DNA of 33,114 nucleotides from a virus, in the IMG/VR virus record IMGVR_UViG_3300046370_000613, positions 1-33,114 of that record, one strand, 5' to 3'. The stretch's first letter is position 1, and each line of letters begins with the position of its first letter. Shown here piece after piece: positions 2 to 30,868 of this stretch. The notes under the pieces were generated by a model that was not told where the DNA came from, ran no database searches, and was given only the letters and a program-made list of their open reading frames with translations. A program made the position numbers and the translations under genes.

Positions 2-616
2 GGACAAGAATTATTGGAAGAATTACTATCTAAAATAAATAAAACAAAAAAGCCCGAACCTGAGCAAAAATTTGGCGAGCCAATTAATACAGATTGCCCA
101 ATCAAGCCTGGCCGAGCTATTGATCCAGCTTTATTAGCTTTGAATGAAAATGGAGAAACTCTTGCTTTTTGTTGTAAATCTTGCGTGGATAAATTTAATT
201 CTCAAAAAAAACAGCAATATAAAAATAAATTTGTGAAAGACAGGAACTCGGTTCGTGCATCCGAGCTAAGTTCTCCAGCACCAATAGGTCATGTAATTCG
301 AGAGTTCGGCGGATCAGATCGCGAACAAATTGAAAACGCAAATACAGAACCTTCAACAACTCAAGTTTTAAATTTAATCAATGGTTTTGTAGAAACAAGA
401 ATTATAAATAATAAAAATTCTGAAGTAGTTAAGTTAATAAAACAGCAAAAAACATTAGATAATAAAATAAAAGTTGGCTTTAAGTCTATTTTAAATAGAA
501 AACCTTCTATAGCAGAGTTAAAATTATTCAAAGACGCATTGATAAATAAAGATAATGTATATAAAGAAATAATATGGACTTTAATAAATTCACATGAATA
601 CATTTTTATAAAATAA
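2..616 (+). CDS. PSD1/DUF1553-family protein, C-terminal part (5' partial) with a YHS-like Cys cluster
   Basis: The reading frame is open to the first base, so the gene starts outside the window; the TTG at 14 is only an in-frame codon. Two parts are visible. A Cys-containing stretch (NTDCPI ... AFCCKSCVDKF, about residues 26-61 counted from the TTG) resembles YHS/TRASH-type metal-binding domains. The last 120 residues match the C-terminal core of DUF1553 (PSD1) proteins: RASELSSPAPIGHVIREFG, then SDREQIENAN, a TTQVLNLINGF stretch, and a final INSHEYIFIK. These proteins are typical of Planctomycetes and Verrucomicrobia and are usually paired with a DUF1501 gene, as here, 18 bases downstream. 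Function is unknown. The odd point is its presence beside phage replication genes. The family call is fairly sure; the YHS call is tentative. Confidence 0.72.
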   Translation, partial: GQELLEELLSKINKTKKPEPEQKFGEPINTDCPIKPGRAIDPALLALNENGETLAFCCKSCVDKFNSQKKQQYKNKFVKDRNSVRASELSSPAPIGHVIREFGGSDREQIENANTEPSTTQVLNLINGFVETRIINNKNSEVVKLIKQQKTLDNKIKVGFKSILNRKPSIAELKLFKDALINKDNVYKEIIWTLINSHEYIFIK

Positions 617-634
617 TTAAAAGAAAAATATAAT

Positions 635-1933
635 ATGAAAACAAATTTTAAAAACATAGATGAGTTAGGTAGAAGAGAATTTATCGCACATGCCGCAAAA
701 GCTTGCTTTGGTGTCGGATTAATGCCTATGGCTGGAGCTTATATACATAATAACGTACAAGCGCTTGAAGCGGGCGCTAGACTTGCTTCTGCAAGGCATG
801 TCATTTACCTAAATATGTCTGGAGCTATGTCTCACTTGGACACTTTTGGAACGAAACCAGATTGTCCTGAGATTCAAGGCCCTACAAAATCTATTGCTAC
901 TACGGCTGATGGCATACTGCTTTCTGAATATTTGCCTAAAACCGCACAATTAATGCATCATGCATCAATAATTAAAACTATGGTTACAAGTCAGGGCGCT
1001 CATGAACAAGCAAGTTATCTGATGCATACAAGTTACTTAAAAAGAGGTACTATAGTTCATCCTACTTTTGGTAGTTGGGTTTCTAAATTATCTGGTTCGA
1101 TTAACGAAACAATTCCGTCGAATATTAAAATAGGAGGTGGAGGATTAGGAGCTGGGTTCTTGGAATCTAAATATGGTCCACTTTCAATTAATAACCCAAA
1201 ATCAGGTTTAGCCAATAGTAAACTGGCAGGGTATTTAGATAAAGAGCATTTTCAAGGAAGAATATCTCTAATTGAAAAACTTAATTCTAATTTCGCAACA
1301 GAATTTCCTCAGAAAAAAATAAGAGCATACTCAGACCTTTATAAAGATGCTATAAAATTAATGAATAGCGAAGACTTAAAAGCTTTTGATATATCCCAAG
1401 AGTCAGATAAAATTCATGAACTTTACGGATCAACAAATTTTGGACAAGGATGCTTATTGGCTAGAAGATTGGTTGAAAACAGAGTTCGTTACATTGAAGT
1501 TACGCGAGGAGGGTGGGATACTCATGATAATAATTTTGAAAGGGTGCAAGAAAATTGCTCAGATATAGATCAAGCTTTAAGCGCTCTTTTAATTGATCTC
1601 GAAATGCGTGGATTATTAAATGATACTTTAGTTGTATTAACTTCTGAATTCGGAAGAACTCCTAACATTAACGGCAGAGATGGAAGAGATCATTGGCCTT
1701 ATTGTTTTACTGCATTTATGGCGGGAGGAGGAATCAAACAAGGTTTTTCTTATGGAGAAACAGATGATAAAGGAAGATCTCCGAAAGAAGGTAAGCCAAT
1801 CAAGCCTGAAGATTTAAATGCAACAATAGCTTATGCTCTAGGATTACCCTTGAATGATGTGCAATACTCGCCTTCTGGACGACCTTTTACGCTTGCAAAC
1901 AAAGGAACTCCTTTATTTGATATATTAGCTTAA
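635..1933 (+). CDS. DUF1501 family protein with twin-arginine signal
   Basis: The 432-residue product matches DUF1501, a sulfatase/alkaline-phosphatase-fold family with no established reaction. The N-terminus has a twin-arginine motif (GRREFI, residues 12-17) followed by a hydrophobic stretch to about residue 37, so export in folded form is likely. Family hallmarks include YLNMSGAMSHLDTFGTKP near residue 60, RGGWDTHDNNF around 290 and SEFGRTPNINGRDGRDHWP around 337-355. Length is close to the family norm, so the gene looks intact. It follows the DUF1553 gene directly, the usual cellular pairing, and probably shares its transcript. No Shine-Dalgarno sequence is seen; a TATAAT abuts the ATG. 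An exported DUF1501 enzyme in a phage is unexpected; host-surface or polysaccharide modification is speculation. Confidence 0.88.
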   Translation: MKTNFKNIDELGRREFIAHAAKACFGVGLMPMAGAYIHNNVQALEAGARLASARHVIYLNMSGAMSHLDTFGTKPDCPEIQGPTKSIATTADGILLSEYLPKTAQLMHHASIIKTMVTSQGAHEQASYLMHTSYLKRGTIVHPTFGSWVSKLSGSINETIPSNIKIGGGGLGAGFLESKYGPLSINNPKSGLANSKLAGYLDKEHFQGRISLIEKLNSNFATEFPQKKIRAYSDLYKDAIKLMNSEDLKAFDISQESDKIHELYGSTNFGQGCLLARRLVENRVRYIEVTRGGWDTHDNNFERVQENCSDIDQALSALLIDLEMRGLLNDTLVVLTSEFGRTPNINGRDGRDHWPYCFTAFMAGGGIKQGFSYGETDDKGRSPKEGKPIKPEDLNATIAYALGLPLNDVQYSPSGRPFTLANKGTPLFDILA

Positions 1934-1943
1934 AATTACGTGT

Positions 1944-1975
1944 AACTTAGTTTTCCCTCGGCCGAGGTAAAAGTT
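1944..1975. other. inverted repeat centred on CCTCGGCCGAGG
   Basis: A perfect 12-base palindrome (1956-1967) is extended by TTTT/AAAA and AAC/GTT arms, between the DUF1501 stop and the nrdA promoter. No long T-run follows on either strand, so it is at best a weak terminator; an operator for nrdA is the alternative. Confidence 0.45.
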
Positions 1976-1996
1976 ATTGACATAAGTGATTTTGCG

Positions 1997-2028
1997 TTGA
2001 CACTTGGTCGATAAAATGCTAATATAAT
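1997..2028 (+). promoter_or_regulatory. sigma-70-type promoter of nrdA
   Basis: TTGACA at 1997-2002 is followed by TAATAT at 2020-2025 (17-base spacer), overlapping a TATAAT at 2023-2028. The nrdA ATG lies 9-12 bases further on, leaving no room for a ribosome site. Confidence 0.6.
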
Positions 2029-2037
2029 AACATCAAT

Positions 2038-4494
2038 ATGAATATCAATGTAAAAAAACGAAACGGTAGGCTCCAACCTTTTTTAGTGGAAAAAATTAAC
2101 GCAAATGTAGAAAGAGCATGTCACGAAGTAGAAGAAACTTCTGTCAGTGAAATTGTTTTAGATGCTCAATTACAACTTTTTGATAAAATCACAACCTCCG
2201 AAATAGATAAAGCTTTAATATTATCAGCTAGAGAAAAAATAGAAAAAGAGCCAAACTATAATTTTGTGGCAGCGAGATTACTTCTCAATACTGTATATAA
2301 AGAAGTGTTCAAAGAAGGCGTAGATTCTGATGCATTCAGGCTGCAATATAGAAAAAGCTTCATACAAAATATAAAAAAATTAGTTAAGCTCGAAAAACTT
2401 AGTCCTAAAATGTTGGATTTTGATTTATCGAAATTATCAGAAGCAATAAAAATAAGAAGAGATAAAGATTTTAAATATTTAGGTATTCAAATCTTAACAG
2501 ACAGATATTTTATTAGGCATGATGATAAAATCATGGAAGCTCCACAATGTTTTTGGATGAGAGTTGCCATGGGTTTGGCAATTAATGAGCAAAACAAAGA
2601 TGAATGGGCGATTAAATTTTATGATATGTTTAGTCAATTTTTATATACATCTTCTACTCCAACCCTTTTTAATAGCGGAACTGTTAGATCTCAATTAAGT
2701 TCTTGTTACTTAAATACCTTTGATGATAGCATTGATGGAATTTTTGATGGAGCCTGGCAAGAAGCTAGAAAAAGCAAATATGCAGGAGGGTTAGGGCTAG
2801 ATGTTACCCCTTTTAGATCTACAGGCTCTCATATTAAAGGCACAAACGGAATTTCAAGTGGACTTGTCCCTTGGTTAAAGATTTATAATGATCTATTGGT
2901 AGCAGTAAATCAAGGCGGCAAACGCCCAGGAGCAGGCTGTGCCTATCTTGAGCCTTGGCATTTAGATTTTGAAGACTTTTTAAATCTTCGCCGAAACACT
3001 GGAGATGATAGACTGCGGTGTCACGACATGAATACCGCTTCTTGGATTCCTGATGAATTTATGCGAAGAGTTCAAAATCAAGATGATTGGTACTTTTTTG
3101 ACCCTAGAGAAGCTGATTTGCACGATTGCTTTGGGGAAGAGTTTGATGAAAAATATAATCAATTATGCGCTCGAGCAGAACAAGGTTTAATAAAAAATTA
3201 CCGAATAACACCCGCTAAAGAACTGTGGAAAAAGATGTTGAAGGTGTTATTTGAGACTTCGCACCCATGGAATACATTCAAAGATCCATGCAATATTCGC
3301 TATACAAATCAACACGAAGGGGTTGTACATAGCAGTAATTTATGCACAGAAATTACGCTTCATACAAAAGCTTCAAAATATGACAAGGGTCATAAAACAG
3401 AAATTGGTGAAACTGCAGTTTGCAATCTTGGATCAGTCAATTTATTAAATCACATGAACGAAGATCTAACTGATCTCGATTACATAAAATTGCAAGAAAC
3501 AATTCATACAGCAATTAGAGCATTAGATAATGTTGTAGATCTGAATTTTTATCCAACAAAAGAAGCTGAAAATAGTAATTTAAGACACCGCCCAATTGGA
3601 TTAGGAATGATGGCTCTTCACGATGTGCTTCATAAAATGAATATAAATATAGATAGCGATGAAGCTGCAAGATTTAATGATAAACTTTTTGAGTTTTATT
3701 CAATGCATGCGATTTATGCTAGTTCTTTATTAGCGGAAGAACGTGGTAAATACGAAACTTACGAAGGTTCTTTGTGGAGTGGAGGAGTATTTCCAATTGA
3801 TTCTTATAATAATTTAATGGTTTATAGAGGTAAACAAAAAGTACCCGAACAGCCTGCTACTGGTAAACCTTTGACCGGTCAGGGTCAAACTTTTAAAGAA
3901 TGGGCAAAAGTTAGAACTCATGTCAATGAATTCGGAATGAGAAACTCAAATGTTATGGCTATAGCGCCAACAGCAACGATTGGTTACATAAATGGAGTAG
4001 AGCAAAGTATAGAGCCCAATTTTTCTGTTCTTTTTGTTTACGAGAATAAAAGCGGCAATTTCTTTATCACTAATCAACATTTTATTGATGACATGAAAAG
4101 CGAGGGGCTATGGAATTCTGAGATTGCAAAATTAATTAAAAGTGTTGATGGAGACCTTTCTTTATTAAACGGGGATATCCCAAGTTGGATTAAAGATAAA
4201 TATAAAACTGCTTTTGATAGAGATATGTTTAAACTAATTGAATGTAATTCTGTTAGACAGAAATGGATTGATCAAGCGGTAAGCTTTAATTTGTACAATA
4301 AATCTACTTCCTTAAAGTATTTAAATGATATTTATGTAGCTTGTTGGGAAGCAGGTTTAAAAACAACTTATTATCTCAGGAATAGAGCTGCATCAAAAGT
4401 AGAAAAATCTACGGGCGAAAAAGAAACTGAAAGTCCATCTGCTTGCAGTATTGAAGCTATGAAAAATGGCGGAACATGTGAAAGCTGTCAATAA
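2038..4494 (+). CDS. nrdA: ribonucleoside-diphosphate reductase, class I large subunit
   Basis: The 818-residue R1 subunit reduces ribonucleoside diphosphates to dNTP precursors. Residues 1-92 form an ATP-cone (KKRNGRLQPF ... NYNFVAARLLL), so allosteric control by ATP/dATP is expected. Catalytic residues are in place: C223 in LSSCYLNT and C462 in VCNLGSVNL are the redox pair, and N434, C436 and E438 in SNLCTEI are the active-site group with the thiyl cysteine. A YY pair near the C-terminus (KTTYYLRN) fits the radical pathway. The tail ends in GGTCESCQ, a CxxC that can be re-reduced by thioredoxin or glutaredoxin. nrdB follows after 52 bases with its own promoter. Phages use such enzymes to feed replication. 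The enzyme appears complete. Confidence 0.96.
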   Translation: MNINVKKRNGRLQPFLVEKINANVERACHEVEETSVSEIVLDAQLQLFDKITTSEIDKALILSAREKIEKEPNYNFVAARLLLNTVYKEVFKEGVDSDAFRLQYRKSFIQNIKKLVKLEKLSPKMLDFDLSKLSEAIKIRRDKDFKYLGIQILTDRYFIRHDDKIMEAPQCFWMRVAMGLAINEQNKDEWAIKFYDMFSQFLYTSSTPTLFNSGTVRSQLSSCYLNTFDDSIDGIFDGAWQEARKSKYAGGLGLDVTPFRSTGSHIKGTNGISSGLVPWLKIYNDLLVAVNQGGKRPGAGCAYLEPWHLDFEDFLNLRRNTGDDRLRCHDMNTASWIPDEFMRRVQNQDDWYFFDPREADLHDCFGEEFDEKYNQLCARAEQGLIKNYRITPAKELWKKMLKVLFETSHPWNTFKDPCNIRYTNQHEGVVHSSNLCTEITLHTKASKYDKGHKTEIGETAVCNLGSVNLLNHMNEDLTDLDYIKLQETIHTAIRALDNVVDLNFYPTKEAENSNLRHRPIGLGMMALHDVLHKMNINIDSDEAARFNDKLFEFYSMHAIYASSLLAEERGKYETYEGSLWSGGVFPIDSYNNLMVYRGKQKVPEQPATGKPLTGQGQTFKEWAKVRTHVNEFGMRNSNVMAIAPTATIGYINGVEQSIEPNFSVLFVYENKSGNFFITNQHFIDDMKSEGLWNSEIAKLIKSVDGDLSLLNGDIPSWIKDKYKTAFDRDMFKLIECNSVRQKWIDQAVSFNLYNKSTSLKYLNDIYVACWEAGLKTTYYLRNRAASKVEKSTGEKETESPSACSIEAMKNGGTCESCQ

Positions 4495-4510: not shown

Positions 4511-4539
4511 TTGACTTCGTTATCTTATACTGATATAAT
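4511..4539 (+). promoter_or_regulatory. sigma-70-type promoter of nrdB, leaderless geometry
   Basis: TTGACT (4511-4516), exactly 17 bases, then a perfect TATAAT (4534-4539). The nrdB ATG at 4547 is 7 bases beyond the -10, where +1 is expected. The in-frame TTG at 4511 is the -35 box, not a start codon. Confidence 0.8.
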
Positions 4540-5661: not shown

Positions 5662-7347
5662 ATGAGCAAAAAATTAAGCGCTAAAGAGCTGTCGGTTAAT
5701 CAAGGTAAAGTTAAGTTAACGGCAGAAAACGGAAATCTTATTGTCAACACTGTTGACGAGAATGGAGAATTGGTTGAGATTACATCTACAACAAAAAGAG
5801 AACAAGAAATTTCAAGTTTAGCAGTCCTAGCTTCAGAGTCGGAGTCTTTACAAACCATCGCTACAAGCCACTCAACTTATGGAGCAGTAAGAACTGACAT
5901 TGCTAAAGGAGATGGCAGTTCTCAGCAAACATTTGTACTTGACGATAGACAATTCTCTTCAAAACCAATTGTTACGGCGACATTAGTAGGTAACGAAAAT
6001 GACCCAAAACATTATGTTTTAATCTCCGATATATCAGAAACATCTTCGGAAGGAATTTACCAAGTAACTTTTGAATTTTCCGATGAAATTTCACAGTATC
6101 AATCAGATGGAACCACTTTGACAAATTATAAGTTGAACATTTTAGCAGTGGTTGATGGAACTGATAGTGATCTTGATGGAATTCCAGATCATACAGATAC
6201 AGATGATGATAATGATGGAATTCTTGACGTAGACGAGCCTAACCCAATATTAACTGAAGATGAAGATAGTGGCTTTTATTTAGTTAACGATACAATTCAA
6301 AGTAGCTACTCAGCTTCTGAGGCAGCACTACCAAACTTAAGCGAGGATGGAAATTCTCTCGCTATTGCTTATCCTAACAGTCAAGTTCTAAGAGTGTTTG
6401 ATATAGATGGTTCAAATGGGTGGGTGCAAAGAGGAGATGATATAACTATAGAATCTTCATTTTATTCAGTAAGAAACTTAGGAGAACCTGACGACAGACG
6501 AATTAGTTTAAGTGGAGACGGAAATAGAGTTGCAGTATCATTCGCAGCTTCAAGCGTTAGATCGCATGATGTTCAAGTTTTTGAATGGGCGAATAATTCA
6601 TGGAGTCAAATTGGAGGAGATGTAACTAATTCCGATCCTCTTTCATCTGAAATTTTTGCCTCAAGTATCGAATTAGATTATGACGGTTCTACTTTAGTTA
6701 CAGGGTCAATTGGGGATACAGCTGGATCGACTAGTTCAAAAATGAGAGTATTTACTTTTAATGGATCTAGCTGGTCACAGCAAGGATCATCAATATCAGT
6801 TGGGGCGGCAGTAGCGATTAATAGAGATGGATCAGTTGTTGCTGCAACTCCAAGGCAGGCTACTCATACTGCGCAAATATATGAATGGAACACATCAAAT
6901 TCTTCGTGGGACCAAAAAGGTTCTAATATCTCCATGGGCTCTGGAGGCAGTTATTATGGAAGGGTTAGTTTATCATCAGATGGAAATACGGCTTTAATTG
7001 CGAATCCTAATGTAAATTCCTTGAAAGTTTATGATTGGAATAATGCTAATTCTAGTTGGGAAATTAGAGGTTCCGCAATCAGTCATTCAAAGTTCCGCTC
7101 TGCATCTATAAGTAATGATGGATTAAAATTATTAGTTGCATCTAAAAATGGTCATTCTGCGCTTGCTAAAGTCATGATTTATGCTTGGAGCGATACAAAT
7201 AGTTCTTGGGATCTTCAGGGTACCGTTGAAGGCCCTAATACTTTTTTAGCAAGACATATTGCTGATATGAGTAAAAATGGAGAAAGATTTGCTGTAGCAG
7301 GAAGCAATAGTTCGGATACAAAAGTATATCAAATTTCAAATTCTTAA
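5662..7347 (+). CDS. large beta-propeller-like virion or adhesion protein with Ca-binding repeats
   Basis: The 561-residue product has three parts. An N-terminal beta-sandwich (about residues 85-165) resembles H-type lectin domains (FSSKPIVTATL ... YKLNILAVVDG) and recurs in the protein at 14415-15206. Residues 166-192 are an Asp-rich thrombospondin-type-3-like run (DSDLDGIPDHTDTDDDNDG), probably calcium-binding. The rest is about six repeats with an alternating pattern of LSxDGNxxA and VxxWxxxNSSWxxxG, as in FG-GAP or WD40-like propellers. There is no signal peptide. Tail fibre or receptor-binding protein is the likeliest role. The gene sits alone between two matching terminators, with a TGTATATA element 9 bases before ATG resembling the minus-strand gene starts, so late expression is inferred. 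Confidence 0.7.
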   Translation: MSKKLSAKELSVNQGKVKLTAENGNLIVNTVDENGELVEITSTTKREQEISSLAVLASESESLQTIATSHSTYGAVRTDIAKGDGSSQQTFVLDDRQFSSKPIVTATLVGNENDPKHYVLISDISETSSEGIYQVTFEFSDEISQYQSDGTTLTNYKLNILAVVDGTDSDLDGIPDHTDTDDDNDGILDVDEPNPILTEDEDSGFYLVNDTIQSSYSASEAALPNLSEDGNSLAIAYPNSQVLRVFDIDGSNGWVQRGDDITIESSFYSVRNLGEPDDRRISLSGDGNRVAVSFAASSVRSHDVQVFEWANNSWSQIGGDVTNSDPLSSEIFASSIELDYDGSTLVTGSIGDTAGSTSSKMRVFTFNGSSWSQQGSSISVGAAVAINRDGSVVAATPRQATHTAQIYEWNTSNSSWDQKGSNISMGSGGSYYGRVSLSSDGNTALIANPNVNSLKVYDWNNANSSWEIRGSAISHSKFRSASISNDGLKLLVASKNGHSALAKVMIYAWSDTNSSWDLQGTVEGPNTFLARHIADMSKNGERFAVAGSNSSDTKVYQISNS

Positions 7348-7438: not shown

Positions 7439-8197
7439 ATGTTACCTTTATTTAAAAGTCATTATTCGATAGGAAAAAGTATACTAACTTTAAACGACCC
7501 AAGTGATCATAAAGAAGGAGGGTCAGACAGTATCTTTTCTATAGCGCAAGAAAATAACCTTAAAGAACTTGTTTTAGTAGAAGACTCCCTCACAGGGTTT
7601 CTTCAAGCCAAAAAAAATGCCGATAAATTAAATATGAAATTAATTTTTGGATTAAGAATTAATATGAAAGAAGACGCCTCACTAACAAACAAAGAAGACT
7701 CTTCAAATAGCTCTCATAAAATTATTCTTTTTGCAAAAAACTCTAAAGGATGCCAACTATTAAATGAAATATATAGCGAAGCATTTACAAAATGTCAAAA
7801 TAGTGTAGACGAAAAACTTTTAAAAAAATATTGGAATAAAAAACATTTAATTTTAGCAATTCCATTTTATGATAGTTTTATATTTAATAATTTAATGAAA
7901 TTTGCAAACTGCACACCAAGTTTTTCTTTTTGTGATCCAACATATTTCATTGAAGATAATGGCTTGCCTTTTGATCGCTTCCTTCAACAAAAAGTCAAGA
8001 ACTTCGCGGCAAAAAATAAAAATAAAGTAGAACTAACAAAAAGTATATACTATAAAAATAAAAAAGACGTAACCGCCTTACAAACATACAAATGTATAAC
8101 TGGTCGTACTTTTGGAGTAAAGACTTTATCCAAGCCAAATTTAGATCATTTCGGAAGCAATGAGTTTTGCTTCGAAAGTTGGAAAGAACATAACTAA
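7439..8197 (+). CDS. stand-alone PHP-domain-like subunit of the DnaE-type replicase
   Basis: The 252-residue protein resembles the N-terminal PHP region of bacterial DNA polymerase III alpha. Near the start FKSHYSIGKSIL stands where DnaE has its HxHxxYS metal motif, with most metal residues missing. FSIAQENNLKELVLVEDS fits the following helix-strand. The last 40 residues (TALQTYKCITGRTFG ... NEFCFESWKEHN) match the DnaE segment that normally runs into the polymerase palm. It stops there and a separate exonuclease gene follows after 11 bases, so the PHP part is probably a structural subunit that pairs with the polymerase at 8850. The metal site looks degenerate, so no enzymatic activity is assumed. 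It is the first gene of the replicase operon. Confidence 0.68.
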   Translation: MLPLFKSHYSIGKSILTLNDPSDHKEGGSDSIFSIAQENNLKELVLVEDSLTGFLQAKKNADKLNMKLIFGLRINMKEDASLTNKEDSSNSSHKIILFAKNSKGCQLLNEIYSEAFTKCQNSVDEKLLKKYWNKKHLILAIPFYDSFIFNNLMKFANCTPSFSFCDPTYFIEDNGLPFDRFLQQKVKNFAAKNKNKVELTKSIYYKNKKDVTALQTYKCITGRTFGVKTLSKPNLDHFGSNEFCFESWKEHN

Positions 8198-8208
8198 TAA
8201 ATTATAAA

Positions 8209-8853
8209 ATGAAAGAATCCCTTCTTAGATTTAAACCTAAACAAAAATATCTACTTTTTGATTATGAAACATGTAATCTTAATTTAGTAGACAACAACAA
8301 ACCCTGGCAGTTAGCATTTCTTGTTATAGAAAACAATAAGATTGTAGAATCAAAAGATTATTGGTTAAAATGGGACAATCTAAATGTCTCACCAGAAGCC
8401 GCAAAGATAACTGGCTTTACTGAAGCTAAATACAAAAAGAAAGCGTCTTGCCCCAAAGCTGCATTAGATCATTTTGAAAAGTACCTATATGATGATTCTT
8501 ACATTAAGGTAGGGCATAACTTATTAGGCTTTGATGTTTATATGCATAATATGCACAGAAAATTAGTTGATGCTAAATCACAATCAGATTTTAGTTATAC
8601 AGAACACTTAGTAGATACTTTATGTTTAGCAAAAGCATTGAAAAAAAGAATAAAACTTGACAAGGATGATGATTTTTTGGCTTGGCAATATCGCCTTAAC
8701 CACCTAATTGAAAGAGGTTTAAGTTGCAATCTCAAACAATGTTGTAAAGATTTTGATGTAGATTTTGATGAAAAAAAACTACATGATGCTCTTTATGATA
8801 TTAATGTTAACTTTCAGGTTTTTAAAAAAATGATATGGGAAATAGAAATATGA
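8209..8853 (+). CDS. DnaQ-like 3'-5' exonuclease (DEDDh), replicase proofreading subunit
   Basis: The 214-residue protein carries the DEDDh exonuclease residues: D18 and E20 in LFDYETCN (ExoI), D110 in VGHNLLGFD (ExoII), H192 and D197 in LHDALYDIN (ExoIII). This is the proofreading fold of DnaQ/epsilon and of the exonuclease inside PolC. The gene lies between the PHP and polymerase genes, the same order in which PolC carries these domains in one chain. Its stop overlaps the polymerase start in an ATGA (8850-8853), so translation is likely coupled. Proofreading for the phage replicase is a strong inference. Confidence 0.85.
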   Translation: MKESLLRFKPKQKYLLFDYETCNLNLVDNNKPWQLAFLVIENNKIVESKDYWLKWDNLNVSPEAAKITGFTEAKYKKKASCPKAALDHFEKYLYDDSYIKVGHNLLGFDVYMHNMHRKLVDAKSQSDFSYTEHLVDTLCLAKALKKRIKLDKDDDFLAWQYRLNHLIERGLSCNLKQCCKDFDVDFDEKKLHDALYDINVNFQVFKKMIWEIEI

Positions 8854-11408
8854 GTTTTACAGAACAATTTACAAAATACGAAAACTGCTGTCCTCCAGGC
8901 GTAAGATTACCAGAGATTAAAATTGAACAAAAGTATTATGACATGCTTGAAGCAGATAATACTATATCAAATTACGACTTTCTTCGTAAGCTATGCCATA
9001 AAGGAGTATATGATAAAGGAATAGATAAATATAAAAATAAAAAAGATTATTTTGATCGTGCAAAATCAGAATTAAAAATATTAAATGAATTAGGATTTAT
9101 TGATTATATTTTATTAAATTGGGATATATTAAATTTCTGTCACGAGAATGATATTCCTACAGGCCCAGGAAGAGGTTCTGCGGCAGGATCTTTGGTTCTT
9201 TATTTGATTGGAGTAACAAATGTTGATCCTGTAGAGTATAATTTATTTTTTGAACGTTTTGTATCTAAAAGCCGAGCAAGAAAAATAGAGCATGAGGGAA
9301 TAACTTATTTAGATGGAAGCTTATTGGCTGATGTTGATAATGATATCGCTTACGAAAGAAGAGCTGAAGTTATTTCTTATATTGAAAAGAAACATCCTTC
9401 TAGGACAGCGAAAATTTTAACTCTTAATACATTAAGTGGAAAATTATGCGTCAAAGAGTGTGGTAAAATCGTTGGAGAATTAACAGAGCAAGAAGTCAAT
9501 ATTGTTAGTGATTCTATACCCAAGAAATTTGGAGTTGTAATGCCTCTTAAATCTGCTATCGAAGAAAGTGAAAAGTTTACAGATTGGGCTTCTAATAATG
9601 GAGAAATTTTTAACATCGCTTTAAAATTAGAAGGTCTCAATAAAAACACAGGAGTTCACCCTAGTGGTATTGCAATATCGTTTGATACAATTACAAATAT
9701 CTGCCCAATACAAAAGTCTAATGACGGAGCTTTAGTCACAGGTTACGATATGAACTGGGTATCCGAGTTAATGGTTAAGTTTGATATTCTAGGGTTAAGA
9801 ACATTGAGTGTTATATATGATGTTTGCAAGTCTTTAGGAATTGATTGTAATGAAATAGATCTTCATGATGAAAAAGTATTTACTCCACTTCAAAGTCTTC
9901 GCACGCCACATGGTTTATTTCAATTAGAATCAGATACAAACTATAGGGTTTGCAAAAAAATCAAGCCGAATAGTTTGGAAAAATTAAGTGCTGTCGTAGC
10001 AATTGGAAGGCCTGGAGCTTTAGAATTCTTAGATAGCTATGCAACATATGCAGAAACAGATGAAGCGCAGGTTATTCATGAATTCTTCTCTGATGTTTTA
10101 GATTATACAGGAGGTATTCCATTGTATCAAGAACAGTTGATGCAAATGGCCGTGAAGGTAGGATTTACTTTAGACGAATCTGAACAACTCAGAAGAATTG
10201 TAGGAAAGAAAAAAGTGGATCAAATGCCCGCTTGGAAAGCAAAAATTCAGAAAAAAATTCAAGACAATGACTTGTCTTCAGAAATTGGCGATATTTTATG
10301 GAGTGTTGCAGAAGATAGTGCAAACTATTCTTTTAATAAATCTCACTCTTTAAGTTATTCTGTTCTTGCTGCATGGACAACATACTTAAAATTTAAATAT
10401 CCTCAACAATTTTTCTTATCCTTATTGAAGATGACAAAGTATGAACCCGCCCCTCAAGAAGAGATAGCAAAAATCAGTAAAGAACTATCTCATTTTGGCA
10501 TAAAACTTCTGTCTCCAGATTTAGCCAAGTCCAATATGGATTTCGATATAGAAGGAAAAGACATTAGATTCGGATTAAATAGCATTAAAGGAGTCAGCGA
10601 AAAATCCTTAGAAGCTTTAAAAGATTTTAGATCTACAGAAACTCCAACAAAATATGATATCTTTCTTGCTGCAAAACAAGCAGGATTGAATATTGGGGTC
10701 TTGAGTGCGCTTATTCAAGCTGGCGCTTTAGAAAGTAAAAGCTCTAACCGCTCATTAACGGTTTTAGAAGCGCAAGCATTTAACCTCCTAACTGATAGAG
10801 AAAAGAGAAACTTTATTGCTCTTGGAGATAAATATGAATATAAGCTACTGAACTGCATTGCCGACGCTAAAAAAGGAGATTTAGTCGGTGATGATGGTAA
10901 GCCTTTGATGAAAGAGTCTAGGTTTAAAACTTTCAAGAAAAAATACGATATCTATAAGTCAATTTACGACAAAAATAAACAGTATGAAGAATTTGCTAAT
11001 TGGTATTTCGAAACAGAATTGCTAGGCTATAGTCACAGCTCAAACCTCAAAAGCTGTTTTACAGATTCTTATAATTCATTAAAAGATTCAAGAGATTTAA
11101 TTTCTATGGAATCAGATGATAGAGGAAAATTTATTGGGGTAGTAGAAGACTGCATTAAAAGAACTTCAAGAAATGGAAATAAATACATGAAATTATCAAT
11201 TACAGATGAGTTCGGAAGGTATGACGCGATGTTATTAAATTCCAGAAGAGGTAATTTTTATGATAAATATTTTGAACAAAAGAAGAAAACTCCAAGCAAA
11301 AAAAATATAATAGTTGTATATGGAAGAAAAGCAGAAGATATCATTTTCCTTGATTCAATCAATATCATGGATGAAAAAATATACATGAAAATGTCTGACG
11401 TTAAGTAA
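8850..11408 (+). CDS. dnaE: DNA polymerase III alpha-type replicative polymerase lacking its PHP domain
   Basis: The 852-residue product is the C-family polymerase core. The palm motif GRGSAAGSLV is at 107-116; the catalytic aspartates lie in ADVDND (D161, D163, D165), a variant of the usual PDFDVDF. Further landmarks are NTGVHPSGIAISF, FDILGLRTL, LFQLESDTNYR, IGRPGAL, PLYQEQLMQMA and SFNKSHSLSYSVLAAW, then the helix-hairpin-helix region and an OB fold from about residue 760 (FIGVVEDCIKRTSRNGNKYM). The start at 8850 is chosen for the ATGA overlap with the exonuclease; an in-frame ATG at 8835 is possible. The PHP part is encoded separately at 7439. No clamp or clamp loader is in the window. 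Confidence 0.93.
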   Translation: MSFTEQFTKYENCCPPGVRLPEIKIEQKYYDMLEADNTISNYDFLRKLCHKGVYDKGIDKYKNKKDYFDRAKSELKILNELGFIDYILLNWDILNFCHENDIPTGPGRGSAAGSLVLYLIGVTNVDPVEYNLFFERFVSKSRARKIEHEGITYLDGSLLADVDNDIAYERRAEVISYIEKKHPSRTAKILTLNTLSGKLCVKECGKIVGELTEQEVNIVSDSIPKKFGVVMPLKSAIEESEKFTDWASNNGEIFNIALKLEGLNKNTGVHPSGIAISFDTITNICPIQKSNDGALVTGYDMNWVSELMVKFDILGLRTLSVIYDVCKSLGIDCNEIDLHDEKVFTPLQSLRTPHGLFQLESDTNYRVCKKIKPNSLEKLSAVVAIGRPGALEFLDSYATYAETDEAQVIHEFFSDVLDYTGGIPLYQEQLMQMAVKVGFTLDESEQLRRIVGKKKVDQMPAWKAKIQKKIQDNDLSSEIGDILWSVAEDSANYSFNKSHSLSYSVLAAWTTYLKFKYPQQFFLSLLKMTKYEPAPQEEIAKISKELSHFGIKLLSPDLAKSNMDFDIEGKDIRFGLNSIKGVSEKSLEALKDFRSTETPTKYDIFLAAKQAGLNIGVLSALIQAGALESKSSNRSLTVLEAQAFNLLTDREKRNFIALGDKYEYKLLNCIADAKKGDLVGDDGKPLMKESRFKTFKKKYDIYKSIYDKNKQYEEFANWYFETELLGYSHSSNLKSCFTDSYNSLKDSRDLISMESDDRGKFIGVVEDCIKRTSRNGNKYMKLSITDEFGRYDAMLLNSRRGNFYDKYFEQKKKTPSKKNIIVVYGRKAEDIIFLDSINIMDEKIYMKMSDVK

Positions 11409-11424
11409 TTTAGAGTGTAATTCA

Positions 11425-13893
11425 ATGAAGATGACTCCTAAACCTAATTTTACGCCAAGAGCGCAACAAGCAATAAATGAGGCAAAAAAAGTAGCAGCTA
11501 TTTTTAATAACGATTATGTTACTTTAGAGCATTTATTTTATGGAATGGTTAATTTAAGTGCAGGTATTTTGAGTGAAATATTATTTTTACTCCAAATAGA
11601 TCCTGATATGTTAAAACAGCAAATAGAATTATCTTTTTTTAAATTCCCCGAAGATGAAGAGCCGGAAGAGCTGGGGCAACCTGAGTACGATGAACATTTT
11701 CATCTTGTATTAAAGGTTTCTGCATCAATTAGCGAAAAACTAGGTCATGAATATGTAGGTATAGAACATATTTTGCTTGCTTTATTAAAATACGAACAAT
11801 CAGAAATACCAAATTTCTTTAAAGATTTTAATGCTACAGAAGAAGATATTATCGCAGAGGTAAGAGAATATTTACATTTATCAAAAGAACACAAACCACC
11901 AAAGTCAGGAAGAGTAAAATTAATTAAAAAAAATTTATCAAAACCCACAGAAGTTAAACTTCAAAATTTAGAAAAATTTGCGACAAATTTAAATGAGTTA
12001 GCAAAGCAAGGAAAGTTTGACAATATAATTGGTAAAGAGCGAGAAATTTATGACGCATCAGAAATTCTTTGCAGAAGAACAAAAAATAATCCAGTTCTTC
12101 TTGGTGAGCCTGGAGTAGGAAAAACTGCGATCGTTGAAGGCTTAACTCAAAAGATTGTAGCAGGCACATGCTCAGACTTCCTATTGACAAAGATTATATA
12201 TTCTCTTGATTTAGGCTCTTTAATCGCCGGAACGAAGTATAGAGGGCAGTTTGAGGAGAGACTAAAGGGTATCATCGAAGAAGTAAAGAAAAACCAAGAT
12301 ATCATCCTCTTTATCGACGAAATCCATACCTTAGTTGGCGCGGGTAGTGCCGAAGGAAGTATGGACGCTGCAAACTTATTAAAACCTTTATTAGCTAGAG
12401 GAGAAATAAAATGCATTGGAGCGACAACTCAAAACGAGTATAAAAAAAGCATTTTGAAAGATGGAGCGTTAGATAGAAGATTTCAAGCGATTAAAGTTTC
12501 AGAGCCAAACACAGAAGAAACATTGCAAATTATGAACGGTCTTAAATCTAAATACGAATCATTTCACAGTGTTAATTACTCAGAGGAAGTAATTGAGCTA
12601 ATTGTGAAGCTTGCGAATAAATATGTTCTAGACAAGCAATTTCCTGATAAAGCAATTGATATTATGGATCAGGCAGGCTCAAAGGTAAAAATCAAAAACA
12701 TCGAAAGGCCTCAACTTGCTAAAGATATTGAAAAAGAATTAGAAACTCTAGCTTTAGAAGAATCTAAACTGCAAAGCTCAGGCAATTCATATCTTGAGTT
12801 AGAAGATCGTCAATTAGATTTATTAGAAGAGTATGATAAGGTTATCTCTGAATGGTCTGCAAAGATTATGAAGAATAAAATTCTAGTTAAACCTAATGAT
12901 ATATACGAAGTCTTATCAGCCAGAACTGGAATTCCGGTAAATGAAATATCTAAAAAAGATTCGGAAAAAGTCTTAGGTTTATTTAAAAATTTATCAAAAA
13001 GAATTATCGGTCAAGAAACAGCAATAAAAGAAATTTCAGAATCTATTTTAAGGTCTAAATCTGGACTACAAGACTCAGGTAAGCCTGTTGGAAGTTTTCT
13101 TCTTGTAGGTACAAGTGGAACAGGAAAAACGCATACAGCAAAATGTATAGCTGAATTTGTATACGGAAGCAAGAATTCTTTAATACAGATAGATATGAGT
13201 GAATTCTCCGAAAAAATATCCTCTAGTAGATTAACAGGTGCATCACCAGGGTATGTAGGTTATGAAGAAGGGGGAGAGCTGACAGAAAAAATAAGAAGAA
13301 ATCCTTATAGTGTAATTTTATTTGACGAAATTGAAAAAGCTCACCCAGAAGTATTAAATATTTTATTACAAATCTTAGAAGAAGGATTTTTAACTGATAA
13401 TTCTGGCAGAAAAGTTTATTTCAATAATGCAATAATAATACTAACTGGGAATATAGGTGGAGAAAAAGCAGCTAAGCCGAATATTGGTTTTGGGGGAGCA
13501 GCCTCAACTGAGTCCGTGGCAAAAGATAAACTTAAGACAGAACTCAAATCATTTTTTAAGCCTGAATTCTTAAATAGGTTAAATGAAATAGTATTGTTTA
13601 ATGATTTTGGACTGGATGAGCTTATTAAAATATGCAAGCTTGAAATGAATAATCTTGGAAATAAATTGAAAGAAAAGGATATTAAACTTTCTTTTACTCG
13701 CGGAGTATTAAAATATATATCAGAAAAAGCTATTCAAGAAAAAATGGGAGCAAGACCGATAAAAAGAATTATACAAAAATTAATTGAAAATGAATTAAGT
13801 AGATTAATTCTTAGTAAAACCTTACCAAGTGGAGGATCAATCAAATTCTCTTTAAAGAAAGACGAATTAGATTATAAAATTACGGAAGAATAG
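11425..13893 (+). CDS. ClpA/ClpC-like AAA+ unfoldase with ClpP-docking loop
   Basis: The 822-residue Hsp100 protein has an N-terminal Clp repeat domain (1-150), a first AAA+ module with Walker A GEPGVGKT (227-234) and Walker B LFIDEIH (295-301), a short ClpC-length middle domain around 430-480, and a second module with GTSGTGKT (562-569) and LFDEIEKAHP (632-641). An IGFGG loop at 687-691 occupies the position of the IGF/IGL tripeptide that docks ClpA, ClpC and ClpX onto ClpP. ClpB lacks that loop and has a longer middle domain, so this should be a protease-coupled unfoldase. No ClpP gene is in the window, so use of host ClpP is inferred. It follows the polymerase by 16 bases and overlaps the opposing gene by 14 bases. 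Confidence 0.92.
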   Translation: MKMTPKPNFTPRAQQAINEAKKVAAIFNNDYVTLEHLFYGMVNLSAGILSEILFLLQIDPDMLKQQIELSFFKFPEDEEPEELGQPEYDEHFHLVLKVSASISEKLGHEYVGIEHILLALLKYEQSEIPNFFKDFNATEEDIIAEVREYLHLSKEHKPPKSGRVKLIKKNLSKPTEVKLQNLEKFATNLNELAKQGKFDNIIGKEREIYDASEILCRRTKNNPVLLGEPGVGKTAIVEGLTQKIVAGTCSDFLLTKIIYSLDLGSLIAGTKYRGQFEERLKGIIEEVKKNQDIILFIDEIHTLVGAGSAEGSMDAANLLKPLLARGEIKCIGATTQNEYKKSILKDGALDRRFQAIKVSEPNTEETLQIMNGLKSKYESFHSVNYSEEVIELIVKLANKYVLDKQFPDKAIDIMDQAGSKVKIKNIERPQLAKDIEKELETLALEESKLQSSGNSYLELEDRQLDLLEEYDKVISEWSAKIMKNKILVKPNDIYEVLSARTGIPVNEISKKDSEKVLGLFKNLSKRIIGQETAIKEISESILRSKSGLQDSGKPVGSFLLVGTSGTGKTHTAKCIAEFVYGSKNSLIQIDMSEFSEKISSSRLTGASPGYVGYEEGGELTEKIRRNPYSVILFDEIEKAHPEVLNILLQILEEGFLTDNSGRKVYFNNAIIILTGNIGGEKAAKPNIGFGGAASTESVAKDKLKTELKSFFKPEFLNRLNEIVLFNDFGLDELIKICKLEMNNLGNKLKEKDIKLSFTRGVLKYISEKAIQEKMGARPIKRIIQKLIENELSRLILSKTLPSGGSIKFSLKKDELDYKITEE

Positions 13894-14389
13894 GTTTTAC
13901 AGGGTTGGGTAATTCTGGATTACCTGGCTCCATAGGATCATGGAACTTCTCCGAAACATTATTATGGAGGTCTTCAGATACATTATCTTTATTCCCATTA
14001 TAAATACTCATGCATGCAGAAAATCTATCTCCCTGAACGGGATATCTTTTTTTCATGTTTCCATCTAATATGCAGCGAGTTATAAATTGGTCTCCAGTTT
14101 CTTGAGCTGCAGGAACAGGATATCTTTTATCTTCGTTAGATAAGAAATTGTTTTTGTCTTCCTCAGACTCTTCTTTTTCTTCTTGCTTTGGAAATATCTT
14201 TTCATATTCATAATACCTCATCGCTTCATCAATCAATTCATATGCTTCTGTAACATTCTTTCTTACCCAATCATCAACAACAGAATCATCTTTGATTGCA
14301 TCAAACATTACTCGAGCTTTTTTCCATACATGAAATAACTCAGATTTTAATTTTTTATTTATATTGTTTGCGTCGGATATATCATTCAT
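13880..14389 (-). CDS. hypothetical phage protein with a Cys-containing C-terminal motif
   Basis: The 169-residue product is unrecognised as a named family. Residues 1-70 look helical; a run of acidic and lysine residues (KQEEKEESEEDKNN) follows. A conserved-looking segment then has DKRYPVPAAQETGDQF, ITRCILDGNMKKRYP and FSACMSIYNG, an arrangement I associate with phage head proteins. The C-terminus is proline-rich (EPGNPELPNPVKPILP). It is last in the minus-strand structural block and its 3' end overlaps that of the clpC gene. A TATAAT lies 7 bases before the ATG and a GTGTA 15 bases before it. A virion or head-assembly role is a guess from position. Confidence 0.6.
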   Translation of the reverse strand: MNDISDANNINKKLKSELFHVWKKARVMFDAIKDDSVVDDWVRKNVTEAYELIDEAMRYYEYEKIFPKQEEKEESEEDKNNFLSNEDKRYPVPAAQETGDQFITRCILDGNMKKRYPVQGDRFSACMSIYNGNKDNVSEDLHNNVSEKFHDPMEPGNPELPNPVKPILP

Positions 14390-15722: not shown

Positions 15723-16868
15723 TTAAACGATAAGACCAAGCAACACGCGGTCATCGATGATCATACGGCCTTCCTCAAGAGAACCGTAGTAACCAACTTT
15801 AGATTGACGTGTAACGAATTGGTCGTCTGCGACTAGAGAAAATTCATCTCCAGACTCAGAATCAGTAGCTACTGCACGAATCATAGATTCGCGTGATAAA
15901 TCTACACCAACAACAATCTGCTCTGTTGACAATAAGGCCTGAGCAGCACCTGCATTGACTGGTACAGAGTAGTTATCTGCAAATGTAGTAGATCCTGCAG
16001 CTGCATCGAAAACATTATTCCATTTTTGGTCAACACCCATTTCATTATACTCTTGAATGGATACGCCATAAAATTCTGGAATTCCAGCGCTATTAAATAC
16101 TGCTTCACGCATGCTGTCTGTACCAGCGATTCCGTCTCCAGCAGTTGGTGCTCCACCTGCTCCACCAATTGTATTAATTGGGTTATAAGCTAAACCGCGA
16201 ATTTCTTCTACGATTTCTGGAGAAACCAAGATATCTGTAATTCCTCTTCCTCTACGCTCGCTAGGAGTACCACCTGTCCAAGCAGTATTAATACGCTTAG
16301 CCTTAGTGAATAACTTATTAAGGTCGGAAAGTAAGAAACGTCCAGACTGAGCAGAACGAATAATATGCTGTTCGCTATTTGTGTTAGCGTTAGCCAAAGC
16401 AGTCATAATCATGGAAGCAGAAGTTTTTTCTTGTTTAAGAAGAATTTCTTGCGCCATGCGTGTGAAAGTTTTGCTTACAACGTCGAGTCTTGAACGAGAA
16501 GCGTAGCGTTTATCAAAACTTAATGCACTATCAAGTGTGTAAGTCGTGAACTTAAGCTCGCTTTGAGAAGGTGCTACCTGATTGGTAGGAAGGCCTCCTG
16601 GAACAGACTGACTCCAGATTTGGATGTAATCTTCATCAGTAATATCGTGATAAAGGTCCAAAGGAATACTTGGACTTTCTTCGCTGTTAAACTGAAGAGA
16701 ACTAAACATGTTGCTCACTGTAGGGGCTGTATTAACAACCTCAGCTAAAACTGGTCCAATGAACTCAGCTAAAGCTGTTTGAGCTTCGTATGCTACATCT
16801 CTGTTTTTTGAAGCCATAGCTTTGATAAGCTCGACTTGCTCGGGTGTTCTTTCTAAAGTAATTTTCAT
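15723..16868 (-). CDS. major capsid protein (HK97-fold candidate)
   Basis: The 381-residue protein has the length and layout of a phage major capsid protein. It has a helical N-terminal arm, a beta-rich E-loop-like region (SIPLDLYHDITDEDYIQIW), a long spine-type helix (TFTRMAQEILLKQEKTSASM), LVSPEIVEEIRGLAYNP typical of the A-domain, and a beta-rich C-terminus (SKVGYYGSLEEGRMIIDDRV). Genomic position supports it: it follows the protease/scaffold and decoration genes and ends at a strong terminator. The start has a Shine-Dalgarno AAGGA 9 bases upstream, fitting high expression. The fold is inferred from layout rather than a decisive motif. Confidence 0.82.
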   Translation of the reverse strand: MKITLERTPEQVELIKAMASKNRDVAYEAQTALAEFIGPVLAEVVNTAPTVSNMFSSLQFNSEESPSIPLDLYHDITDEDYIQIWSQSVPGGLPTNQVAPSQSELKFTTYTLDSALSFDKRYASRSRLDVVSKTFTRMAQEILLKQEKTSASMIMTALANANTNSEQHIIRSAQSGRFLLSDLNKLFTKAKRINTAWTGGTPSERRGRGITDILVSPEIVEEIRGLAYNPINTIGGAGGAPTAGDGIAGTDSMREAVFNSAGIPEFYGVSIQEYNEMGVDQKWNNVFDAAAGSTTFADNYSVPVNAGAAQALLSTEQIVVGVDLSRESMIRAVATDSESGDEFSLVADDQFVTRQSKVGYYGSLEEGRMIIDDRVLLGLIV

Positions 16869-19166: not shown

Positions 19167-21038
19167 CTAGTTGATAAACATGGGAGTAAAAGTATAATTT
19201 ACTTTATCGGCTTTAACAGTCACTATATCATAATAAAGCTTAACCATCCAATTTCCTAATATAAGTGCAGAATAACTATCTTTTCTTGCTTTTTCTGGCC
19301 CGGTTTGCCTTTTTAAACTTGGAGGTAAGTCAAAAGTTTGAGTTCCTCCTGCTGAAGTTGTAATTTGAACGAGAGAGCATTGAGTCTTTATCAAATTCAT
19401 CATGTCAAATTGGTGCTCTACGAAATCGATCATTTTTGCTGCATTGGTTTGGCGCTCTAAACTTTGAGATGTACGTAAAAATTTTATATCCTGAATCGGA
19501 ATCTTTTTTTGTCTTTGTTCGTTATAAGCGTCGTCAATAGCCCTTGATGCAAAAAATATTCTACGATGATCAAAATTAGCTTGAAGAAGCTCGTTTGCCA
19601 ACCTAATCCATTGACTAGTTGGTTTTCTCAGGTAACATATAGTCTTATCTTCTAAATTATATTCTTTTTTTCCTTCTATTAATTTTTGTTGATAATGCTC
19701 AAGATCATCAAAATTTGTATTCAAGCATTTGATATTCATTTTATTCTTCTTAAACAAACTACTTTCATTTGCAGCATTTATAAATTGAACGCCTCCATTA
19801 TAGTCTCCAATAATACTTACAACATTAAAATGTGTTAATAAATAATAAAAATAAAATATATGTTGTTTTAAATTTGTTCCACTTAAAGCGTAGCTATGAA
19901 CTACGGTTCCAATTCTTTTTTCATCATTAAGCTTTATTATCATCATAGCAAAGTCATCACTACTTTCACTCTCCGCCCAACTTGGGTCGAATGCAAGAAT
20001 GTATTTCTGATCAGGCTCTCCCTTAACTTCTATATGGGGATTTTCTCCATCTTTTAGCGTGCAGGCTGCCATTTTTGAAGTTTTAAAATATCCGCTGCTA
20101 TCATCAGTAAAAATCGAACCGAACTCTCGATCGAATTGACTTTGACTCATTGTAGATTTTGCTTGATCAAGTAGGTTTTGATCGTATAATTGCTTGGGTG
20201 CGCAGTCATAACTAAATTGCATAATAACTCTGTGCGCCTCAGATTGTTTGGTGCTTCCAGTTTGTATTAAATTTTCAAACTGTTCATATGCTTTATACAT
20301 ATACTCGAATTTGTAACTTGCAGATGACAAAGCTATCAGTTTATTGTTTGGCCATATATGACGATCGTCTTCAGCCATCTCTCCTTTTTCTATCAAGGTT
20401 GTTTCTAAATTGTAAAGCTCTTCCCTTTGAGTCGGATTTTCAACCACACTCAAGAAAGGTATGATAACCTCATTATAAATTCGTTCAGGCATCAAAGCAA
20501 ACTCATCGATAATTATTCTATGAAAACGAAATCCGCGAAGTTTTTCACCGTCACCCAAAGGTAATGCTCGTATCCTACTACTTCCAATTTCCAACAACCA
20601 TTCATCGTTACTTTTGGACTTATGGGTTATGCATTGAGAAAGATATGTCGCGCCAGGCTTAGAAGCGATATCTTCTATTTTTTTAAATATCATTTTTGCC
20701 TGACGAAATGATTTGGATAAAATTCCGATCTCAACACCTTGATTCATTATTGCATCTAAATAAGCATAAATTGCAGTAGTAAATGATTTACTCATTCCCC
20801 GACTCCACACGCCCATGAAATAATCGGTGCTGAACATAGCCTTAATAGCCATATGTTGAAAAGGAAATAACTGCACTCCACTAATTAAATCCGCAGTAAA
20901 AGTTATATTCTCTCTTAAAAATTTATAGAGCAAAATTTTAGCTTCTTTTTCTTCGATAAAACCTTCAATTTTACTTAGTTTTTCATTAAAGTCCTCTTCG
21001 CCTCTGCGAGATAATTGATTTCCTGTTTCCCAAGCCAT
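19167..21038 (-). CDS. terL: terminase large subunit
   Basis: The 623-residue DNA-packaging motor protein has an N-terminal ATPase and a C-terminal RNase H-type nuclease. The adenine-binding region is FPFQHMAIKAMF; the Walker A is SRGMSKSF (79-86), with Ser where most P-loops have Gly before Lys; Walker B with catalytic Glu is IIIDE (175-179); coupling motif III is ALSSASYKF (236-244). The nuclease acidic residues are D351 in LAFDPSWAES, D412 in SIIGDYNGG and D502/D503 in AIDDAYNE. The gene overlaps the ERCC4-nuclease stop by one base (TAATG). It appears complete. Confidence 0.93.
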   Translation of the reverse strand: MAWETGNQLSRRGEEDFNEKLSKIEGFIEEKEAKILLYKFLRENITFTADLISGVQLFPFQHMAIKAMFSTDYFMGVWSRGMSKSFTTAIYAYLDAIMNQGVEIGILSKSFRQAKMIFKKIEDIASKPGATYLSQCITHKSKSNDEWLLEIGSSRIRALPLGDGEKLRGFRFHRIIIDEFALMPERIYNEVIIPFLSVVENPTQREELYNLETTLIEKGEMAEDDRHIWPNNKLIALSSASYKFEYMYKAYEQFENLIQTGSTKQSEAHRVIMQFSYDCAPKQLYDQNLLDQAKSTMSQSQFDREFGSIFTDDSSGYFKTSKMAACTLKDGENPHIEVKGEPDQKYILAFDPSWAESESSDDFAMMIIKLNDEKRIGTVVHSYALSGTNLKQHIFYFYYLLTHFNVVSIIGDYNGGVQFINAANESSLFKKNKMNIKCLNTNFDDLEHYQQKLIEGKKEYNLEDKTICYLRKPTSQWIRLANELLQANFDHRRIFFASRAIDDAYNEQRQKKIPIQDIKFLRTSQSLERQTNAAKMIDFVEHQFDMMNLIKTQCSLVQITTSAGGTQTFDLPPSLKRQTGPEKARKDSYSALILGNWMVKLYYDIVTVKADKVNYTFTPMFIN

Positions 21039-29569: not shown

Positions 29570-29667
29570 TATACAAATAAATAAAACTTTTTTTAACTTT
29601 TTTTTCTATGTTTTCATAAGTACTTCTTTATCATATACTTATAGCACAAAGTTTTTTTGCTATGGGC

Positions 29668-29695
29668 TTGACTTTTGACCAAAGTATGTTAGATT
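29668..29695 (+). promoter_or_regulatory. sigma-70-type promoter with 40-base leader
   Basis: TTGACT (29668-29673), 16-base spacer, TAGATT (29690-29695). Unlike most in this region, the ATG is 40 bases downstream; the leader resembles that after the promoter at 32976. Confidence 0.7.
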
Positions 29696-29735
29696 GTATA
29701 TATAAGATTAAATAAACAATATAGAAAATAAAGAT

Positions 29736-30086: not shown

Positions 30087-30109
30087 TAGACCAAAAAAAC
30101 AAAAAAAGC

Positions 30110-30137: not shown

Positions 30138-30145
30138 AAATAATT

Positions 30146-30361: not shown

Positions 30362-30371
30362 AAAGATTGCA

Positions 30372-30581: not shown

Positions 30582-30587
30582 GTATAT

Positions 30588-30866: not shown

Positions 30867-30868
30867 GT

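Follow-up and report, generated by a model that had tools for sequence, protein, structure and literature searches.

Members of a host-type envelope module, encoding the predicted exported proteins PSCyt2/PSD1 (DUF1549-DUF1553) and DUF1501, are carried by large and uncultured phages, most of them marine, of at least three families, as judged from terminase and capsid markers, and seem to have been acquired from marine Opitutia. The reading that we favour, with a probability of about 0.5, is that this is a host-derived exported auxiliary module, and that the phage copy maintains or boosts a host envelope complex during infection. The window, by which we mean the whole stretch of DNA analysed, corresponds to positions 1-33,114 (33,114 bases) of IMG/VR virus record IMGVR_UViG_3300046370_000613. 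Its main features are:

2..616, + strand: C-terminal fragment of a PSCyt2/DUF1549-PSD1/DUF1553 gene, 204 codons plus stop, truncated by the contig start
635..1933, + strand: intact DUF1501 gene, 432 aa, predicted alkaline-phosphatase/sulfatase-type fold
635..763, + strand: N-terminal leader of DUF1501, twin arginine at codons 13-14 (read from the sequence, end approximate)
1934..2037, + strand: DUF1501-nrdA intergenic region, with a palindrome and a promoter-like site
2038..4494, + strand: nrdA, ribonucleotide reductase large subunit, phage gene
4511..5560, + strand: nrdB as listed ORF
7439..13893, + strand: PHP, exonuclease, Pol III alpha and ClpA/C-like genes, markers of the phage replication module
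15723..16868, - strand: putative major capsid protein, named from its position in the structural block
19167..21038, - strand: terminase large subunit, which marks the contig as a tailed phage

Downstream of DUF1501 the genes follow in the order nrdA, nrdB, PHP, exonuclease, Pol III alpha and ClpA/C-like ATPase, and the opposite strand encodes the terminase, a PhoH-like protein and the putative capsid protein. The latter has no family match and no match among 50,697 phage records, and 567 related stretches were found in IMG/VR; we used it to define the phage lineage. Pol III alpha is divided into separate PHP, exonuclease and polymerase genes (7439-11408), in an order that is constant across the lineage. 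The TTG start of nrdB at 4511 overlaps a near-consensus promoter-like site, TTGACT-17-TATAAT (11/12, 4511-4539), and nrdB of L020 starts at the Met equivalent to ATG 4547, which is therefore probably the true start. Downstream of nrdB a 561-aa protein (5662-7347) lacks a convincing family match and contains a TSP3-like stretch, DSDLDGIPDHTDTDDDNDGILD, and propeller-like repeats; a relative is also found 3' of nrdB in L366 and L367. Positions 29595-33035 hold short genes with repeated promoter-like units, TTGACTTTTG ... TAGATTGTATATATAA (families D1, D4 and D5), together with five copies of a 37-nt element, D2, and inverted copies. This is probably a regulated early region.

An earlier note had described a DUF1553-DUF1501 pair at the start of the window. 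The pair is present, but its first gene is only the C-terminal fragment of a DUF1549-DUF1553 protein. The 5' end of ORF 2-616 is open, and its product, 71% identical to the L002 protein, aligns over its whole length to the last ~200 residues of proteins of 714-808 aa that related phages encode upstream of DUF1501. Being a fragment, it scores weakly and under the cut-off against PF07587/DUF1553 (E 2.8e-4). Its full-length relatives match both PF07583/DUF1549 (E 1e-42 to 1e-45) and PF07587 (E 1e-24 to 1e-29), and PSCyt2/PSD1 (DUF1549-DUF1553) plus DUF1501 is therefore the better name for the pair. These relatives combine both domains in a single protein with an N-terminal leader, which is Sec-like, an SHD1-like domain and a CxxCH motif, whereas the window has the C-terminal part only. 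The motif occurs as CAQCH in all 18 aligned phage copies, and CAQCHDHPFDRW could be a c-type haem site. With the pattern used, we found one TRASH/YHS-like Cys insert in ORF 2-616 (TDCPIKPGRAIDPALLALNENGETLAFCCKSC) and in window-type phage copies, one or two in most close host orthologues, and none in the L017 group or the second phage group. The phage proteins are mostly shorter than complete host orthologues (675-765 versus 816-844 aa). A fold search with a PSCyt2/PSD1 model (pLDDT 85) revealed no overall structural relative (best E 0.17); local matches were to the SHD1 domain and to phycobilisome-linker-like domains.

The ORF at 635-1933 matches PF07394 (DUF1501) over 389 of 390 positions (E 2.9e-108; 363 bits against a Pfam cut-off of 27) and has no internal stops. 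Its twin-arginine signal is intact, as the earlier note had stated. The leader, MKTNFKNIDELGRREFIAHAAKACFGVGLMPMAGAYIHNNVQA, reads as a twin arginine at residues 13-14, a hydrophobic stretch and a possible VQA cleavage site. Every cellular (49/49) and phage (18/18) sequence has R13, and R14 is absent from a single phage sequence (49/49 and 17/18). With the twin-arginine leader and hydrophobic core of a Tat substrate, the protein is predicted to be exported. The positions invariant in cellular sequences (R13, H123, D295, E338-F-G-R341, R351 and H353) are all present in the 18 phage rows of the DUF1501 alignment (A4), and H123, D295, E338, R341, R351 and H353 are suggestive of an active site.

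A Foldseek search of the PDB with the AF2 model (pLDDT 89, pTM 0.85) returned sulfatases and lipoteichoic acid synthases (E 2e-8 to 1e-5), suggesting a fold of the alkaline-phosphatase-superfamily type, though at a TM-score of about 0.4. The stretch TLVVLTSEFGR lines up with the sulfatase stretch T-S-D-H/Q-G, so that E338 may occupy the metal-binding position of sulfatases. The predicted fold would fit an enzyme that hydrolyses sulfated or phosphorylated polymers, yet the formylglycine nucleophile motif C/S-x-P-x-R is missing from both the window translation and the A4 consensus, and an S1 sulfatase proper was rejected on this ground. A known anti-phage defence system was also rejected, since a search of PADLOC-DB gave no match at E 0.01.

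The sulfatase/alkaline-phosphatase-type fold would also suit a virion or adsorption component, with DUF1501 acting as a tail- or capsid-borne glycan hydrolase, and large phages can carry glycan-active proteins. Such a role is nevertheless highly improbable given the export leaders, the location within the replication module, away from the structural block, the absence of any PHROG match and the frequent pairing with a host-type CxxCH protein.

That DUF1501 lies next to phage nrdA was confirmed; the two genes are on the same strand and separated by 104 nt. The gap contains a 12-nt palindrome, CCTCGGCCGAGG, and a promoter-like site, TTGACA-17-TAATAT (1997-2025); sites of this kind are about as frequent in the region as expected by chance. 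Palindrome and promoter-like site suggest that nrdA may be transcribed separately from DUF1501. A terminator was rejected, as the palindrome folds no better than shuffled sequences (hairpin z-score -0.55). The earlier note had proposed looking in related contigs for DUF1501 beside nrdA. Relatives do have the pair near nrdAB, but in other gene orders, and the exact order DUF1501-nrdA was found in no other contig examined. Ribonucleotide reductase genes are within 10 kb of the module in 28 of 49 other contigs from the two main phage groups, and adjacency to nrdA is typical of only part of one phage lineage. In L017 the genes nrdA, nrdB, PSCyt2 and DUF1501 are arranged head to tail, with PSCyt2 starting 32 nt past nrdB.

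The location at a contig end and the junction unique to the window contig would be consistent with an assembly artefact or misbinned host DNA. A chimera of phage and host DNA is improbable, however, because the GC3 of the window DUF1501 (21%) is near that of nrdA (23%) and below that of the close host orthologues (36-42%, one at 73%); it thus fits the phage and not the host. The genes also sit among phage genes on dozens of independent contigs, and we give the artefact explanation almost no credence.

A scan of IMG/VR with the window DUF1501 protein revealed another 35 loci, one at 41% identity and nearly all of the others at 60-83%, and a scan with the PSCyt2/PSD1 alignment revealed 37 loci, many on contigs that the first scan had not returned. 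Most loci have window-type nrdAB, PHP, exonuclease, Pol III alpha, Clp or capsid genes inside the fetched 10 kb. DUF1501 relatives are thus found on dozens of contigs of up to 222 kb, with terminase, capsid, Pol III and ribonucleotide reductase genes. Absence of the pair from all related phages, which the earlier note had named as speaking against its proposal, was therefore not what we found: the pair recurs in them. Among isolated-phage records there was no full DUF1501 and no PSCyt2 match.

A phrog_2-type terminase was detected in 10 of 11 large virus records tested. In G012 (197 kb) and G017 (222 kb) this terminase scores much better, there is no match to the window capsid protein, and gene content is otherwise unlike that of the window; it is from these markers that we count at least three phage families carrying module members. 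DUF1501 was present in 30 and PSCyt2 in 17 of 50 records examined, figures that do not represent prevalence, as the records were partly picked for having DUF1501. The large records G007 and G009 (195 and 206 kb) have DUF1501 and lack PSCyt2, and neither gene is present in G022 and G023 (163 and 200 kb), which share the capsid lineage. The module is therefore non-essential, although each absence is provisional because every record is classed as linear.

Several loci differ from that of the window. L023 encodes a second DUF1501 (12911-14242) from a different Verrucomicrobial paralogue group, adjoining a 549-aa protein (11305-12954) without a Pfam match; a candidate second copy in L024 (ORF 12988-14343) is not DUF1501 and was rejected. 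In L343 (G021) PSCyt2 is absent and a divergent DUF1501 (1399-2673) is followed by a protein with TSP3 repeats; this 211-kb phage belongs to the capsid lineage of the window. In L035 (G012), a large phage unrelated to that of the window, the region 11449-14124 encodes, beside the phage's own PSCyt2-DUF1501 pair, an outer-membrane-barrel-like protein and two exported proteins, one SHD1-like and one EF-hand-like. A phrog_7595 protein is encoded between PSCyt2 and DUF1501 in several second-group phages (L134 3573-4310 and others), and directly 3' of DUF1501 in L003 (11287-12060).

The best cellular matches to the window DUF1501 are from Opitutia (Verrucomicrobiota), where four genomes have copies at 74-77% identity and another four at 64-65%; beyond these eight genomes identity falls to about 50%. 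The closest cellular copies form one orthologous group in Opitutia, within a locus of conserved order, PSCyt2/PSD1 - DUF1501 - PSCyt1 (PSCyt1 in L356: Pfam E 1.6e-28). In several genomes an octahaem cytochrome gene precedes PSCyt2/PSD1, and SufS-like and often sulfatase genes follow PSCyt1; labels beyond the Pfam hits reflect our own interpretation of the sequences. Around the host copies we recognised no viral genes. The phages carry only PSCyt2/PSD1 and DUF1501 of this three-gene locus. PSCyt1 was found in none of 30 phage records, whereas two hosts gave 15 and 30 matches, and we therefore rejected the idea that it is carried elsewhere in the phage genome.

In the trees of both genes the phage copies are nested with Opitutia. 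In the DUF1501 tree the window group is sister to hosts L037 and L356 (94/95), L332 is sister to hosts L360-L363 (100/100), and L017, L020 and L036 group with L038 and L359 (87/76); for two other phage groups the sampling includes no host sister. In the PSCyt2/PSD1 tree L017 and L023 group with L038 and L359 (100/99), and the window-type group is placed beside all these hosts jointly, not L037 and L356 specifically. A single phage clade was rejected in both trees (p-AU 1e-58 for DUF1501 and 4e-49 for PSCyt2/PSD1), in tests that presuppose the model and a group named in advance. The fixed host synteny and the nesting of phages among hosts point to transfer from host to phage, apparently several times, as the simplest reading; single phage-to-host events are possible. 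Marine Opitutia are likely the hosts of these phages, judging from gene similarity. DUF1501 paralogues number 19 and 26 in the hosts that carry the closest orthologues, and despite this abundance the main phage group appears to derive from one orthologous group. Movement between phages is indicated as well, because identities of Pol III alpha and DUF1501 disagree: the window shares 87% and 51%, respectively, with L137, and 64% and 81% with L007.

Both genes are under strong purifying selection. For pairs with measurable synonymous change, dN/dS is 0.02-0.07 for DUF1501 and 0.045-0.054 for PSCyt2/PSD1, values that are rough because synonymous sites are near saturation, and none of the pairs suggested relaxed constraint. 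This bears on the possibility that the genes are passenger cargo unrelated to infection, for example at a hot spot of genomic exchange beside nrdAB. The patchy distribution (30/50 records), the varying gene order around nrdAB and the repeated exchange with hosts would all be in line with cargo. The low dN/dS at near-saturated synonymous sites, a GC3 adapted to the phage, the presence in at least three phage families and the recurrence of the same orthologue in the main phage group, although hosts hold many paralogues, make it improbable.

An outer-membrane-barrel-like protein of ~217 aa (alignment A6) with a signal peptide and a C-terminal Phe (L012 9225-9878, L033 9256-9909, L027 13942-14595 and others) is also common in the phage lineage, with 33 of the 50 records examined encoding it. 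In L012 and L033 its gene is located 92-123 nt upstream of DUF1501. It was not found in the hosts tested. As it occurs in 24 of 30 records with DUF1501 and in 9 of 20 without, we rejected it as a fixed third member of the module and regard it as a gene of the lineage.

The main rival to an auxiliary module is receptor change or superinfection exclusion, in which an altered phage version would remodel or replace a surface complex that serves as receptor and so exclude other phages. In support of this, the proteins are predicted to be exported and of envelope type, the phage PSCyt2/PSD1 is mostly shorter than that of the host and has fewer TRASH/YHS-like inserts, and the lineage encodes the outer-membrane barrel, in L012 and L033 just upstream of DUF1501. 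Furthermore, near phage relatives have different module alleles (L137, L007), which fits the expectation of an arms race. However, the predicted active-site residues and CxxCH, which a decoy could lose, are retained without exception, dN/dS is low with no apparent diversifying selection, and the presence of the barrel in phages without DUF1501 makes it an independent gene. We therefore consider receptor change or exclusion unlikely, if less so than the other rivals.

The auxiliary-module reading may be put as follows. PSCyt2/PSD1 and DUF1501 would have been acquired together, apparently repeatedly, from the conserved Opitutia locus, and their expression may often be timed with that of nrdAB or the replication genes, as the position of the pair just past nrdB in L017 suggests. 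From export onward we infer the steps. The two proteins would leave the cytoplasm by separate routes, PSCyt2/PSD1 through its Sec-like and DUF1501 through its Tat-like leader, and come together in the periplasm or on the outer envelope. The phage would thereby supply two of the three parts of a host complex, or DUF1501 alone; the host PSCyt1 cytochrome protein would be the third partner, joined by host PSCyt2 where the phage has only DUF1501. Once host expression drops, the complex would stay working or be boosted, favouring replication. The set would then be auxiliary metabolic or envelope-maintaining, by analogy with the photosystem genes of cyanophages. We infer the label "auxiliary metabolic", because to our knowledge neither the DUF1501 nor the PSCyt/PSD families have a known biochemical function in any organism, hosts included. 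The earlier note had likewise proposed that these may be host-derived auxiliary genes, acting on host surface or envelope polymers. This finds partial support: the host origin, from two trees, the export signals and the recurrence agree with it, while the action on polymers is conjectural.

A bolder version, which we hold tentatively and at somewhat less than even odds, is that phages of Verrucomicrobiota bring replacement parts for an exported PVC-type complex of CxxCH and alkaline-phosphatase-fold proteins that, with host PSCyt1, controls an envelope process relevant to infection, such as energy supply, supply of sulfated glycans or entry of rival phages. If true, it would hint at a function for some very numerous unknown families. 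The genomes of many Planctomycetes and Verrucomicrobia each encode tens of DUF1501 and PSCyt/PSD proteins, and ten genomes tested had from 10 to at least 79 DUF1501 matches. Uptake by at least three phage families, with the dominant group derived from one orthologous Opitutia set, would single out a host locus that matters in infection. The phage versions are compact minimal forms, two proteins or DUF1501 alone, in which function could be tested. The missing function limits what can be said of mechanism, yet makes the system all the more valuable as a handle. Furthermore, the analysis suggests marine Opitutia as hosts of a large uncultured phage group without close isolated relatives.

Passages in PMC4452313 and PMC4960237 attribute the DUF1501 module of Planctomycetes and Verrucomicrobia to Kamneva et al. 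2012, and PSCyt/PSD domains have been described in Verrucomicrobia (PMC5615132). The phage pair shares with these modules the families, the order of the first two genes, the leaders and the invariant residues. It differs in being located on phage genomes, in the missing PSCyt1 (0/30) and in a mostly shortened PSCyt2/PSD1. In Proteobacteria, DUF1800-DUF1501 pairs are linked to bacterial chitin synthase genes (PMC5122149). There too a DUF1501 with a twin-arginine leader lies beside a partner, but the partner family is another one and the pairs are chromosomal, with no phage involved. S1 sulfatases and LtaS-type enzymes share the predicted overall fold of DUF1501, at only 9-14% identity, a TM-score of about 0.4 and without the nucleophile motif.

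In the papers searched we found no phage role for DUF1501 or PSCyt modules; the one phage paper among them that mentions DUF1501 reports a weak hit of a 61-aa protein. One divergent DUF1501, A0A6J5M742 from an uncultured Caudovirales phage, is already deposited in BFVD and shows only 14% identity in a structural alignment. Host-derived auxiliary genes are already known in phages, and as far as the literature searched shows, members of this PVC envelope module have not been described among them. Like auxiliary genes generally, those reported here are on virus genomes with hallmark genes and are nested phylogenetically among cellular homologues. The cyanophage gene psbA is a host-derived auxiliary metabolic gene of this kind, and the phage module resembles such genes in its host origin, apparent repeated exchange, purifying selection and frequent location near nucleotide-metabolism genes. 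Unlike psbA-type genes, it encodes no known metabolic enzyme but two predicted exported proteins that belong to an envelope module of PVC type.
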